Source: Oscillospiraceae bacterium (GTDB lineage Bacteria > Bacillota > Clostridia > Oscillospirales > Ruminococcaceae). Taken from it: a stretch of DNA of 64,000 bases. Below, in pieces: positions 25,521-29,601 of the stretch (the stretch's first letter is position 1; each line of letters begins with the position of its first letter). The stretch spans positions 1-64,000 of the forward strand of contig JAIKWY010000142.1 of assembly GCA_024684395.1 (NCBI GenBank), read 5' to 3'. The position numbers and the translations under genes are program-made. The notes beneath the pieces are model-generated. The model did no database searches and had not been told where the DNA came from. It saw only the letters and a list, made by a program, of their open reading frames with translations.

Positions 25521-28148
25521 ATGAGCGAAGCGAAGAAGAAAGCTGCCGCATCTGCGATCGTAGACAGTGTGGAGTCGCTGGACGCCCTGTTTGTCACAGT
25601 CCGTGCAGCACAGCAGCAGTATGCCTCCTTTACCCAGGAGCAGGTGGATGCCATTTTCCGTGCAGCCGCACTTGCTGCCAATCATGCCCGCATCCCGCTT
25701 GCCAAGATGGCGGTCGAGGAGACCGGCATGGGCGTGGTGGAGGACAAGGTCATCAAGAACAACTACGCCGCCGAGCATATCTACAACCACTACAAGAATA
25801 CCAAGACCTGCGGTGTCATCGAGGAGGACAAGGAGTTCGGCATCATGAAGATCGCCGAGCCGATCGGCATCATCGCCGCCGTCATCCCGACCACGAACCC
25901 GACTTCTACCGCCATTTTCAAGTGCCTGATGGCGCTCAAGACCCGCAACGGCATCATCATTTCGCCGCACCCGAGAGCGAAAGCCTCTACCATCGAAGCG
26001 GCAAGGATCGTCAAGGAGGCTGCCGAGAAGGCAGGCGCTCCTGCTGGTCTGATCGGCTGGATCGACGTCCCCTCCCTCGAACTGACGAACACCGTCATGA
26101 AGGAGGCTGACATCATCCTCGCTACCGGTGGCCCCGGCATGGTAAAGTCCGCGTATTCCTCCGGTACCCCGGCGATCGGCGTCGGCGCCGGCAATGCGGC
26201 TGCGGTCATCGACAGCTCTGCGGACATCGTCAATGCCGTCAGCTCCATCATCCTTTCCAAGACCTTCGATAACGGCATGATCTGTGCCACCGAGCAGACC
26301 ATCATCGCCTGCAAGGATGTCTATGATGCCGTAAAGGCAGAGCTCATCAAGAGAGGCTGCTATTTCCTGAACGATGAGGAGAAGGACAAGCTCCGCAAGA
26401 CCATGCTCATCAACGGTGCACTGAATGCCAAGATCGTTGGTCAGCGTCCCTGCATCATTGCAAAGCTCGCAGGCTTTGAGGTGCCGGAGGATGTCAAGGT
26501 GATCATCGGCGAGGCAGAGAGCACCGGCGTGGAGGAAGCTTTTGCACATGAGAAGCTCACCACCATCCTCGGCATGTACAAAGCAGAGAATTTCGAGGAT
26601 GCGATGGACAAGGCAGAGCAGCTCCTTGTCAATGCAGGCGGTCTGGGACATACCTCCTCGCTGTGGATCGACAATGTGAAGGAACGCGCCAAGATCGACG
26701 CTTTTGCTGAGCGCATGAAGACATGCCGTATCCTTGTCAATACGCCTTCTTCTCTGGGCGGTATCGGCGACCTCTATAACTTCAAGTTCCCGCCGTCCAT
26801 GACCCTCGGCTGCGGCTCCTGGGGCGGCAACTCCGTTTCGGAGAATGTCGGCGTGAAGCATCTGCTCAACGTCAAGACCGTGGCAGAGCGCCGGGAGAAC
26901 ATGCTCTGGTTCCGCACGCCTGAGAAGGTCTACTTTAAGAAGGGCTGCCTGCCGGTGGCACTCGACGAGCTCAAGAACGTCATGAACAAGAAGCGCTGCT
27001 TCGTTGTCACCGACTCCTTCCTCTACAAGAACGGCTTCACCAAGGTCATCACCGACAAGCTGACCGAGATGGGCATTGCCTATACCGTTTTCTCCGATGT
27101 TGAGCCTGATCCGACGCTGCGTTCTGCACAGCTCGGTGCAGAGGCAATGCGCAAGTTCGAGCCGGACTGCATCATCGCCCTCGGCGGCGGTTCTGCGATG
27201 GATGCCGGCAAGATCATGTGGGTGCTGTATGAGCATCCGGAGGCAGACTTCCTCGACATGGCAATGCGCTTCATCGACATCCGCAAGAGAGTCTACACCT
27301 TCCCGAAGATGGGTGAGAAGGCATACTTCATCGCCATCCCGACCTCGTCCGGTACCGGCTCCGAGGTAACGCCCTTCGCTGTTATCACCGACCAGGAGAC
27401 CGGTACGAAGTATCCGCTTGCCGACTATGAGCTCCTGCCGGATATGGCGATCGTGGACACCGACCTCATGATGAGCGCCCCGAAGGGTCTGACCTCCGCA
27501 TCCGGCTATGATGCGATGGTACACGCCCTCGAAGCCTATGCTTCCGTGATGGCGACCGACTATACCGACGGTCTTGCCATCAGAGCGATGCAGCTCATCT
27601 TCCGGTATCTGCCGACCGCTTACGAGGACGGCACCAATGTCAAGGCTCGTGAGAAGATGGCAACTGCCTCCACGATGGCGGGTATGGCATTTGCAAACGC
27701 CTTCCTCGGCGTCTGCCACTCGATGGCACACAAGCTCGGCGCCTATCACCATCTGCCGCACGGCGTGGCGAATGCGCTGCTGCTGACGATCGTGATGCGC
27801 TTCAACGCCTGCGAGAAGCCCCGCAAGATGGGCGTATTCTCCCAGTATCAGTATCCGCATACCCTCGAGCGCTATGTAGAATGCGCTGAGGCGTGCGGCG
27901 TGACCGGCAAGGACGATCAGGAGATCTTTGAGAACTTCCTCCAGAAGCTCGAAGACCTCAAGGCTGCGGTCGGTATCAAGAAGACCATCAAGGACTACGG
28001 CATCGACGAGAAGGTCTTCCTCGAAAAGCTCGACCAGATGAGCGAGGATGCCTTCGATGACCAGTGTACCGGTGCCAACCCGAGATACCCGCTTATCAGC
28101 GAGATCAAGGAGATGTATCTCGAAGCCTATTATGGTGAAAAGAAATGA
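25521..28148 (+). CDS. adhE: Bifunctional acetaldehyde-CoA/alcohol dehydrogenase
   Basis: The 875-residue protein has an N-terminal aldehyde dehydrogenase domain (about 1-445) with catalytic Cys255 in NGMICATEQ and the NAD site region PIGIIAAVIPTTNPTSTAIF. The C-terminal iron-dependent alcohol dehydrogenase domain (about 460-875) has ALGGGSAMDAGK, TSSGTGSEVTPFA, SGYDAMVHALEAY and the metal-binding CHSMAHKLGAYHHLPHG. It reduces acetyl-CoA to ethanol in fermentation. Length is normal. The next gene starts inside its stop codon (ATGA), encoding a degenerate copy of the ADH domain. Confidence 0.97.
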   Translation: MSEAKKKAAASAIVDSVESLDALFVTVRAAQQQYASFTQEQVDAIFRAAALAANHARIPLAKMAVEETGMGVVEDKVIKNNYAAEHIYNHYKNTKTCGVIEEDKEFGIMKIAEPIGIIAAVIPTTNPTSTAIFKCLMALKTRNGIIISPHPRAKASTIEAARIVKEAAEKAGAPAGLIGWIDVPSLELTNTVMKEADIILATGGPGMVKSAYSSGTPAIGVGAGNAAAVIDSSADIVNAVSSIILSKTFDNGMICATEQTIIACKDVYDAVKAELIKRGCYFLNDEEKDKLRKTMLINGALNAKIVGQRPCIIAKLAGFEVPEDVKVIIGEAESTGVEEAFAHEKLTTILGMYKAENFEDAMDKAEQLLVNAGGLGHTSSLWIDNVKERAKIDAFAERMKTCRILVNTPSSLGGIGDLYNFKFPPSMTLGCGSWGGNSVSENVGVKHLLNVKTVAERRENMLWFRTPEKVYFKKGCLPVALDELKNVMNKKRCFVVTDSFLYKNGFTKVITDKLTEMGIAYTVFSDVEPDPTLRSAQLGAEAMRKFEPDCIIALGGGSAMDAGKIMWVLYEHPEADFLDMAMRFIDIRKRVYTFPKMGEKAYFIAIPTSSGTGSEVTPFAVITDQETGTKYPLADYELLPDMAIVDTDLMMSAPKGLTSASGYDAMVHALEAYASVMATDYTDGLAIRAMQLIFRYLPTAYEDGTNVKAREKMATASTMAGMAFANAFLGVCHSMAHKLGAYHHLPHGVANALLLTIVMRFNACEKPRKMGVFSQYQYPHTLERYVECAEACGVTGKDDQEIFENFLQKLEDLKAAVGIKKTIKDYGIDEKVFLEKLDQMSEDAFDDQCTGANPRYPLISEIKEMYLEAYYGEKK

Positions 28149-28828
28149 GTATGCAGTCGTTCCGGATGCCGGAAAAGCTCTATTTCAAGCAGGGCTGTTT
28201 ACCGGTAGCCTTGCAGGAGCTTGTGGATGTCTATCAGGTACAGCGTGTCCTCATCCTGACCGATGAAGTGATGCTGCACAACGGCAGGCTTGCACCGCTC
28301 ACAGGCGCTCTGTATGACATGGGGCTCGACTACGCCGTCAACAGCGAGAGCTTTGCGGCGGACTGCGTGATCGGATTCGGCTTTGCGCAGGCACTCGACC
28401 GTGCCGCAGCATTTGCCGGAGACAAGCCCTTCATCGCCGTTCCGGTCTCTGCGGGGGGACAGATGTCCATCCCGGCATGGCGGAAGGCGGACATGTTCAT
28501 CCTCGATGAGGATGTCTGTGTGCCGATCCCGGCGGGCGAGATCTGCTCGCACATTGCGCAGACTGCACGGGCAAGCCTTGCGGGGGCAAATGTCTCTGAT
28601 TATACCCTTGCGCTCAGTGTGCAGGCACTGCGCATCCTGTTTGACAAAGCCCATACGACCTCTGCGCTGCTTCATGCAGCGGCAATGGCACAGCTGGCGT
28701 ACACGACAGCCCGTTCGGATGAAGTGCCGACGGATAACCTCTTTGAAGATGCTGCCGAAGCGCTCGGCATGAGCGTCACAGAGCTTGAAAACCAGATCAA
28801 TTCTGCTGTAACGGCACAGCATACTTAA
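28145..28828 (+). CDS. Degenerate iron-ADH-fold paralog coupled to adhE
   Basis: The 227-residue protein opens FRMPEKLYFKQGCLPVALQE, nearly the same as the start of the AdhE alcohol dehydrogenase domain (FRTPEKVYFKKGCLPVALDE). Similarity then weakens but stays colinear: ADCVIGFGFAQALD replaces the GGGS NAD loop, FIAVPVSAGGQM replaces the TSSGTGSE loop, and HIAQTARASLAG replaces the metal-ligand helix. The four metal ligands are lost and the domain is about half normal length. It overlaps the adhE stop by 4 bases. It is intact and under apparent selection, so I read it as a pseudoenzyme, perhaps binding AdhE. Confidence 0.8.
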   Translation: MSMQSFRMPEKLYFKQGCLPVALQELVDVYQVQRVLILTDEVMLHNGRLAPLTGALYDMGLDYAVNSESFAADCVIGFGFAQALDRAAAFAGDKPFIAVPVSAGGQMSIPAWRKADMFILDEDVCVPIPAGEICSHIAQTARASLAGANVSDYTLALSVQALRILFDKAHTTSALLHAAAMAQLAYTTARSDEVPTDNLFEDAAEALGMSVTELENQINSAVTAQHT

Positions 28829-28857: not shown

Positions 28858-29601
28858 ATGGAAATTCTGCTCGAACGCCCGAACAAGGTCATTTACCGTG
28901 AGGGCGACCACGCAGTGAAGCAGTTCGCCGAGAACTACTCCACATCCGATGTCCTGAACGAAGCCCTCAACCAGGCAAGAGTACAGGAGACCGGTCTGCC
29001 GATCCCGAAGCTCGTCGAGGTGCGCAAGAACGGCGAGAAGTGGGAGATCGTCATGGACTATATCCCCGGCAAGACAATGAAGCAGCTCTTAGAGGAGGAT
29101 CCCTCCCGTGAGGACGAGATCCTTGACCGCTTCGTGGAGATCCAGCTCTCCATCCATGCGACCCCGGCACCGTCCACGATGAACAAGCTCAAGGACAAGA
29201 TGAACCGCAAGATTTCGGAGTCCACGCTCGATGCCACCACCCGCTATGAGCTTCACACCCGTCTGGAGTCCATGCCGAAGCACAAGAAGGTCTGCCACGG
29301 CGACTTAGGGCTCGGCGACGTGATCATCACGCCCGAGGGCAAGTACTATATCATCGACTGGGCACATGCCACACAGGGCAATGCCTCCGCCGATGCTGCC
29401 CGCACGTTCCTGAAATTCTCGCTGACCTACGGCGAGGAGCGTGCCAACAAGTACCTCGACCTGTTCTGCAAGAAGAGCGACACCGCCAAGCAGTATGTCC
29501 AGCAGTGGATGCCGATCGTTGCCGCTTCCCAGTCCGTCAAGGGACATGAGGAAGAGCGTGACCTCCTGCTGCGCTGGGTCGATGTATTCGAGTATCAGTA
29601 A
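28858..29601 (+). CDS. Aminoglycoside phosphotransferase/choline kinase-like protein
   Basis: The 247-residue protein has a kinase-like fold: the hinge-like VMDYIPGKTMKQLL, the Brenner motif VCHGDLGLGDVIIT (His-Gly-Asp, with Gly for the usual Asn), and YYIIDWAHATQG for the metal-binding Asp. Substrates of such short APH-family proteins vary (small molecules or fructosamines), and none can be assigned. It follows the adhE paralog by 29 bases with its own strong site ACAGGAGGAATCCCCAT, and is probably cotranscribed with adhE. Confidence 0.82.
   Translation: MEILLERPNKVIYREGDHAVKQFAENYSTSDVLNEALNQARVQETGLPIPKLVEVRKNGEKWEIVMDYIPGKTMKQLLEEDPSREDEILDRFVEIQLSIHATPAPSTMNKLKDKMNRKISESTLDATTRYELHTRLESMPKHKKVCHGDLGLGDVIITPEGKYYIIDWAHATQGNASADAARTFLKFSLTYGEERANKYLDLFCKKSDTAKQYVQQWMPIVAASQSVKGHEEERDLLLRWVDVFEYQ

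Follow-up and report, generated by a model that had tools for sequence, protein, structure and literature searches.

The window, the whole stretch of 64,000 nucleotides analysed here, carries on its forward strand an adhE gene, a short gene that begins within the adhE stop codon, and a kinase-like gene in succession:

25521..28148, forward strand: adhE, a bifunctional acetaldehyde-CoA/alcohol dehydrogenase of 875 aa (NCBIfam NF010378, 1351 bits against a cut-off of 951; Pfam Aldedh, Fe-ADH and ADH_Fe_C)
28145..28828, forward strand: AdhE paralog gene, 227 aa with an ATG start, an internally deleted ADH-domain derivative without catalytic residues
28145..28148, forward strand: ATGA start-stop overlap of adhE and the paralog, read from the sequence
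28160..28222, forward strand: constant head segment, paralog residues 6–26, FRMPEKLYFKQGCLPVALQEL, assigned by identity to AdhE and holding socket positions L12 and F14 (E. coli I460 and F462)
28386..28828, forward strand: divergent paralog body, from about residue 81 (boundary +/- about 60 nt), placed by nucleotide identity windows against the related genome G019
28601..28603, forward strand: paralog Y153, which corresponds to F670 of E. coli AdhE, the residue acting as knob between paired ADH domains, placed by alignment and the role of F670 given in PMC6778083
28858..29601, forward strand: APH/RIO-like kinase gene, 247 aa, with AGGAGG upstream (Pfam PF01636, 51.9 bits)

The paralog starts inside the adhE stop, the ATGA being common to both frames, and its product is a half-length, colinear derivative of the AdhE ADH domain, as the preliminary description had proposed; the ~420-aa ADH domain has been cut down by internal deletions and by loss of most of its C-terminal helices. 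Searched against its own genome at E <= 1, the 227-aa protein finds only itself and the ADH domain of AdhE, the latter at E 1.2e-12 with 47% across residues 3–68. The near-identity to AdhE described for the first 20 residues is borne out, 16 of the 20 residues aligned in the head being matched. Recent gene conversion from adhE is rejected as the source of this similar head, since the two genes encode 10 of these 16 residues with different codons. Pfam returns one Fe-ADH match below threshold (PF00465, 21.2 bits against a cut-off of 31.3, residues 9–65), PF25137 is not found in the Pfam search at E <= 1, and the AdhE model NF010378 covers residues 2–61 only, its 32.2 bits falling short of the required 951. 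The GGGS loop, the GTGSE loop and the four metal ligands, said to be replaced, are all lost from the 227-aa protein. Its codon adaptation is the lowest among nine window genes compared, with one other gene nearly tying.

Homologs of the paralog follow adhE in 23 of the 32 informative genomes of the host genus, a set that leaves out G015 and G027 (contig ends), while in the remaining nine the APH-like kinase gene follows adhE directly. Four genomes (G013, G026, G028 and G029) gave no match in the genus search. The carriers comprise 21 intact ORFs of 208–309 aa, one gene with an internal stop (G018) and one truncated by a contig end (G002); the TGA in G018 is internal, whereas in G023 the TGA simply ends the gene. 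The paralog lies directly behind adhE in 23/23 carriers and the kinase gene comes next in 21/21 with a sufficiently long contig; the APH/RIO-like kinase also adjoins adhE beyond the genus. A gene confined to one strain, with frameshifts elsewhere, had been named as telling against the original reading; instead it is intact in 21 of 23 carriers, and these 21 homologs rule out a one-strain oddity or a frameshifted pseudogene. The carriers form a bacterial group related to Ruminococcus, and AdhE is the main ethanol-fermentation enzyme.

The 4-bp overlap expected in relatives is only partly general. Overlapping starts (ATGA, GTGA, TGATG or TAATG) occur in 10 of the 23 carriers, but 12 have a spacer of 58–72 nt, G002 being counted in neither class at its contig end. 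A hairpin lies in the spacer in 12/12 spacer-type species, a count made without a shuffle control. Among the matches listed in the genus, family and order searches, no stand-alone paralog copy lies elsewhere than behind adhE. Specifically, the family profile search (297 genomes, five of the host genus) and the order search with the protein (394 genomes) gave AdhE and Fe-ADH-sized frames and, among the matches listed, no dead stand-alone paralog outside the genus; a 242-aa frame in G085 and a 165-aa frame in G604 are left aside here, and far homologs may escape.

Alignment of 21 sequences, leaving out G002 (contig end) and G018 (internal stop), reveals extensive loss of the catalytic apparatus. 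The metal ligands D653, H657, H723 and H737 are retained in 0, 1, 0 and 0 of the 21 paralogs, respectively, and the GGGS nucleotide loop keeps its first glycine in 17, its second in one, its third in none and its serine in four; over nine catalytic positions, exact retention amounts to 14 of 189 cells. A complete metal site, the NAD loop and AdhE channel loop 3 are absent from all 21 intact ORFs, so relatives that keep the ligands or the NAD loop, which would have spoken against a pseudoenzyme, are not seen among them. Loop 2 is largely deleted in 17/21 (mean occupancy 0.26) and kept in the four ~300-aa forms. A working reductase is excluded by the lack of a complete metal site and NAD loop. 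Seventeen columns are invariant across the 21 sequences, and dN/dS lies between 0.12 and 0.43, below 1 in all 29 pairs computed (those of 210 paralog pairs at >=50% identity). Together with the 21 intact frames among 23 carriers, these ratios bear out the earlier view that selection holds the frame. On sequence criteria the paralog is a pseudoenzyme, with catalytic residues lost and selection for an intact protein.

Structure prediction of the 227-aa protein alone, suggested as a check, gives a compact mini-ADH in AlphaFold2 at pLDDT 90.2. AdhE and other Fe-ADHs occupy the top rows for this model in Foldseek and VIA-align, with an ADH domain from a spirosome as the top PDB hit, and the predicted fold is that of an Fe-ADH. 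Compared with the AdhE ADH domain (C. thermocellum 8uhw, E. coli 6ahc/6scg), the paralog lacks a complete metal site, the NAD GGGS, loop 3, mostly loop 2 and most of the C-terminal helical region. According to PMC7080775, AdhE dimers are joined into the filament by ADH-ADH pairing, and the interface of AlDH and ADH is where loops 2 and 3 are located. At the ADH-ADH contact, F670 fits a pocket of the partner ADH formed by I460, F462 and I712, and F670 mutation disrupts oligomerisation (PMC6778083); C. thermocellum AdhE has a Tyr at this place (PMC12204686), and the 21 paralogs have Tyr in 20 and Phe in one.

Across positions 460, 462, 670 and 712, the lenient chemical class is kept in 79 of 84 cells. 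A Fisher comparison of this figure with the 14/189 sets lenient class against exact identity and counts related sequences as independent, and its value is not used as a probability. Random sets of four hydrophobic columns equal the four named positions with P 0.068, so that interface retention may only reflect the fold; when the 193 columns are ordered by residue conservation, position 460 comes 110th and position 712 comes 163rd. Ec 488, 492, 705 and 821, considered in connection with inter-helical contact and spirosome length, are not kept, being identical to the window AdhE in 0, 4, 0 and 1 of 21 paralogs. Mean paralog-AdhE identity is 0.77 in the head (Ec 454–474) against 0.37 over later, fully occupied columns. 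An AlphaFold2 model in which the AdhE ADH domain and the G032 paralog were joined as a single chain, with stops read through, reaches pTM 0.52 and pLDDT 69.5; its AdhE half, covered by only four alignment rows, is poor, and the model speaks neither for nor against pairing. The retained ADH-ADH contact chemistry, the absent AlDH-ADH loop 3 and the largely deleted loop 2 fit the anatomy of a putative partner of AdhE.

The paralog consists of a constant head of ~40–80 aa and a body that diverges between close relatives, with sharp boundaries inside the gene. In 60-nt windows against G019, the body has 43–66% nucleotide identity, while the adhE flank has 88–100% and the kinase flank mostly 90–98%. 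For the G000/G019 pair, dS is 0.24 in adhE, 0.20 in the kinase gene and 1.13 in the paralog; in G003/G004 the flanks have dS 0.48 (adhE) and 0.52 (kinase), and the paralogs are 35% identical and differ in length. In the opposite direction, paralog dS in G020/G024 and G030/G006 is 0.51 and 0.44, below flanks at 1.0 or more. These values come from 18 hand-picked pairs, most others showing milder excess or none; dS values that approach or exceed 1 are not to be trusted where the bodies align poorly, and the allele comparison uses one genome per species. In the tree, all paralogs lie on one side of a branch (100/99), apart from AdhE. The paralogs of G000 and G020/G024 form one group (95/96) and those of G019 and G021/G022 another (99/89), yet G000 and G019 are sisters in the tree of AdhE ADH domains (99/97). 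ADH-fold residues are retained in the body of all classes. The constant head and the apparent replacement of the body between close relatives with nearly identical adhE and kinase genes are new findings.

From the computed gene family, catalytic loss, dN/dS below 1, predicted fold, separate paralog grouping and body-confined divergence, we infer a non-catalytic AdhE partner that may bind AdhE, cap or space spirosomes, be made at lower dosage and influence reaction direction; this reading has close to an even chance of being right. A tandem copy of the adhE ADH half probably arose once in the host genus, between adhE and the kinase gene, and would have become a pseudoenzyme, leaving a mini-ADH without the metal site, the NAD loop and the channel-sealing AlDH-ADH loops and with the ADH pairing face kept. 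Such a protein could pair with the free ADH domain at a spirosome end and, because it has no AlDH domain, could not pass the chain on, so that the filament would be capped or shortened. The start overlapping adhE, or the spacer hairpin, would keep the paralog less abundant than AdhE. A changed spirosome length might then shift the balance of ethanol formation and ethanol oxidation; section 3.4 of PMC12173503 describes a much more efficient reverse reaction in the short-spirosome fraction.

Known systems provide partial precedents. Monofunctional Fe-ADH dimers such as FucO share the fold (matches 5br4, 7qni and 1rrm), and the FucO dimer interface is superimposable on the AdhE ADH-ADH interface, according to PMC7080775. 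FucO, however, is a full-length active enzyme, whereas the paralog is ~60% as long and has lost the catalytic residues. ErcA (NCBIfam NF041833) is an Fe-ADH-like regulatory protein and resembles the paralog as an Fe-ADH homolog named regulatory rather than metabolic; its model (382 positions) is not matched by the 227-aa protein, which hits three NCBIfam families at E <= 0.01. Prozyme-type pseudoenzymes, such as the trypanosome AdoMetDC prozyme, bind and regulate an active paralog. The likeness lies in an inactive relative of a working enzyme whose proposed action is through pairing with it; unlike in prozymes, the parent family forms filaments, and the paralog is internally deleted, sits behind the parent gene and has a putative pairing with AdhE.

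Several points weigh against the cap. The paralog could equally pair with itself, its body diverges far faster than AdhE at a speed that a pure cap would not need, and the gene is missing in 9/32 informative genomes. A homodimer would need the same interface retention, and with the confident stand-alone fold and the strong divergence of the body between allele classes this would suit a mini-ADH that works on its own, as homodimer or monomer, in a new function apart from AdhE (as ligand sensor or scaffold), left behind adhE only through its birth by tandem duplication. Such a function is somewhat unlikely, as the gene lies directly behind adhE in every carrier, has no other stand-alone copy among the matches listed in the genus, family and order searches, and is most AdhE-like in its head. 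The absences, the size series from 309 to 208 aa, the fast evolution and the internal stop in G018 would also suit a decaying duplication remnant, tolerated while it shrinks through in-frame deletions; against the 21 intact ORFs, the dN/dS range, the 17 invariant columns and the confident fold, this is very unlikely.

The sharp boundaries, the paralog dS excess in G000/G019, the low paralog identity in G003/G004, the discordant grouping of G000 and G019 and the lowered dS in G020/G024 and G030/G006 are what an adaptor or decoy that docks on AdhE and evolves by diversifying selection might leave, its constant head serving AdhE and its variable body a changing partner or attacker, such as a phage or competitor factor targeting AdhE or its filaments. 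We consider this unlikely: dN/dS is below 1 in all 29 pairs, the body of all classes keeps ADH-fold residues, the partner or attacker is hypothetical, neutral recombination in a dispensable gene could also yield swapped alleles, and the dS contrasts carry the limits of pair choice, poor alignment and single genomes given above. Extremely unlikely is a frame that serves mainly at the mRNA level, as a translated spacer and hairpin setting adhE message stability or kinase translation. Operon position and the hairpin in all 12 spacer-type species (again without shuffle control) point that way, but protein-level selection and fold, the start-stop-overlap carriers without such a spacer, and the adhE-kinase order kept in the nine genomes without the paralog do not.

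Spirosome purpose and length control are unsettled, and recent work ties length to reaction direction (PMC12173503). If the capping reading is true, a natural ADH-only protein, genetically linked to adhE, without an active site and with a pairing face, would be the first protein regulator of spirosome length, as far as the literature was searched; among the matches listed, titles and abstract starts contained none on such a protein or on an adhE-linked kinase, where 'adhe' in part of the searches mainly hit words like 'adhesion'. The carriers provide a natural series of differing lengths and alleles, and capping could be put to a direct in vitro test. Why a dead metabolic enzyme should apparently swap alleles is a puzzle of its own. 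It is quite unlikely, yet conceivable, that the AdhE filament has a dedicated operon-encoded pseudoenzyme derived from its own domain, in which a constant docking head is joined to a hypervariable body that passes between species in discrete allelic forms, much as at immune or decoy loci. If that were true, AdhE spirosomes would be both tuned and dressed with a diversifying module, for example in evading or trapping AdhE-targeting factors.

In the window, adhE is followed by an ORF derived from the AdhE ADH domain (the paralog) and by a kinase-like gene:

25521–28148, adhE
28145–28828, 227-aa ORF (the paralog), in ATGA overlap with the adhE stop
28858–29601, APH/RIO-like kinase gene, 247 aa, 29 nt past the paralog, with AGGAGG upstream

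The paralog begins inside the adhE stop codon, as the preliminary description stated, and the near-identity claimed for its first 20 residues is borne out, with 16 of 20 identical by hand count (FRMPEKLYFKQGCLPVALQE versus FRTPEKVYFKKGCLPVALDE in AdhE). Because the codon differs from adhE at 10 of these 16 residues, the likeness of this N-terminal head does not reflect recent copying. Searched against the genome it comes from, the 227-aa protein hits only itself and, at E 1.2e-12, the ADH domain of AdhE (threshold E ≤ 1). At 4.21 Mb (225 contigs), this assembly is larger than any of the 37 further genus members listed (1.3–2.9 Mb); it could be a composite, or the genome could be uncommonly large.

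The genus search covered 38 genomes including our own, with a match in 34, and the adhE region was read in these (the window and 33 fetched regions). Leaving out G015 and G027, which meet contig ends, the paralog lies behind adhE in 23 of 32 informative genomes and is not confined to one strain; a genomic search for adhE genes followed by an overlapping gene had been proposed in the preliminary description. These carriers comprise 21 intact ORFs of 208–309 aa, one with an internal TGA (G018) and one cut by a contig end (G002). The kinase comes after the paralog in all 21 intact-ORF carriers (that of G012 is cut by a contig end), while in the nine non-carriers it directly follows adhE, 19–83 nt past its stop. 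In the AdhE tree, a single change suffices to explain the carriers, weakly supported at 72% of bootstrap trees, and one non-carrier, G037, is placed in their half. When the 21 paralogs are combined with 33 AdhE ADH domains in one tree, the paralogs form one side of a branch (100/99), for which the tool issued a long-branch warning. Beyond the genus, no stand-alone dead paralog was found among the matches listed from a family sample of 297 genomes or from an order sample of 394 genomes, a 242-aa frame in G085 and a 165-aa frame in G604 being set aside; both searches could miss far homologs.

The kinase stands out among the surroundings, since its linkage to adhE extends well outside the genus. 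Among 119 family genomes surveyed, 37 gave a match at E ≤ 1e-10; by hand comparison of coordinates, 30 of these carry it within ~3 kb of adhE on the same contig, downstream, upstream or divergent, with the listed adhE on another contig in four and no adhE among the matches listed in three. G144 carries it at both adhE copies. The protein has HGDL and DWA motifs and a TIGR02172 match below cut-off, and is a candidate AdhE-linked kinase.

Judged from its residues, the paralog appears to be catalytically inactive, and what it has lost follows a pattern. E. coli numbering was carried over through a phmmer alignment to 6tqh and checked on the published D653, H657 and F670. As the preliminary description had read from the window, the catalytic motifs are replaced: metal ligands D653, H657, H723 and H737 are kept in 0, 1, 0 and 0 of 21 paralogs, GGGS retains its second G in one and its third in none, and the E of GTGSE is present in four. 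Additionally, AdhE-specific loop 3 (758–772) is missing from all 21, and loop 2 (561–589) is kept only in four ~300-aa forms (G001, G003, G005, G033); PMC7080775 places both loops at the AlDH–ADH interface, where they seal the channel.

The ADH–ADH contact, in which F670 fits into a pocket formed by I460, F462 and I712 (PMC6778083), appears chemically kept, though its retention does not clearly exceed that of the hydrophobic core. Specifically, position 460 is V/I/L and position 670 Y/F in 21/21 paralogs, position 462 is F in 19 and C in two, and position 712 is M/I/L/V/F/C in 18; Tyr at 670 also occurs in the window's AdhE and in that of C. thermocellum (PMC12204686). Mean identity to AdhE is 0.77 across segment 454–474 versus 0.37 over the 167 later columns in which none of the 21 has a gap. 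The qualification follows from a control in which four random columns, drawn from 71 that are hydrophobic in AdhE, match the retention of the named positions at P 0.068, and from the ordinary conservation of 460 and 712 (ranks 110 and 163 of 193). In four relatives the paralog shares the reading frame of adhE, and with the spacer stops read as serine AdhE-ADH and paralog could be joined into a single chain; its AlphaFold2 model gave pTM 0.52 and pLDDT 69.5, with the AdhE half itself poorly modelled.

The overlap with adhE, described as 4 bp in the window, recurs only in part: ten carriers have overlapping starts (ATGA, GTGA, TGATG or TAATG), twelve have a 58–72 nt spacer, and G002 falls in neither count. 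A hairpin is predicted in 12/12 spacers (L058, L059, L060, L038, L033, L035, L036, L037, L042, L044, L047, L056) at −18.9 to −27.3 kcal/mol from adhE stop to start codon, values that carry no shuffle control; its stem varies in sequence by species while pairing is kept (G030 versus G031). Just upstream of the start, AGAATTGAGGTTA is invariant in the seven species aligned. Upstream ribosome sites, judged by eye, are weaker for the paralog than for the kinase. Among the nine window genes compared, the paralog ranks last in codon adaptation, nearly level with one other (0.355 vs 0.389; 0.514 vs 0.515). A paralog dose below that of AdhE would fit. In G011, ~124 nt with an apparent long inverted repeat separate paralog and kinase, longer than in 16 other genomes compared.

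The paralog's body, beyond its constant head, appears to have a different history from its flanks. Between G000 (the window's genome) and G019, dS is 0.24 for adhE, 0.20 for the kinase and 1.13 for the paralog; in 60-nt windows, nucleotide identity is 88–100% in adhE, mostly 90–98% in the kinase, and in the paralog 80–90% over about the first 80 codons and 43–66% beyond. G003 and G004 (307- and 236-aa forms) show a like pattern with a shorter constant head of ~40 codons. Since the G000 paralog groups with G020/G024 and that of G019 with G021/G022, even though G000 and G019 are sisters by AdhE ADH domain, this argues for replacement rather than divergence in place. The opposite pattern, paralog dS below the flanks, occurs in G020/G024 and G030/G006. 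All of these pairs are extremes among 18 picked by hand; paralog and flanks agree in several others (e.g. G004/G010), and high dS values are rough. Between G012 and G010, the paralog and kinase start are 95–100% identical and the adhE end 86–100%, with the spacer window at 66%, a break that is another sign of recombination at the locus. With one genome per species, the body swapping may reflect either selection or neutral exchange.

Capping of AdhE filaments is the reading proposed for the paralog; an independent homodimer and, more boldly, an adaptor or decoy are less probable. Under the capping reading, which assumes by analogy with the AdhE family that carrier AdhE forms spirosomes, the paralog would pair with the terminal ADH of the filament; because ADH–ADH pairing lengthens spirosomes (PMC6778083, PMC7080775) and an AlDH domain is missing from the paralog, the chain would end there. 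For EHEC AdhE, PMC12173503 reports that a short-spirosome-dominated fraction is much more efficient from ethanol to acetyl-CoA and no different in the other direction, so that a cap could set reaction direction through spirosome length. We infer that the paralog may bind and cap AdhE at a lower dose and thereby tune the direction of its reaction.
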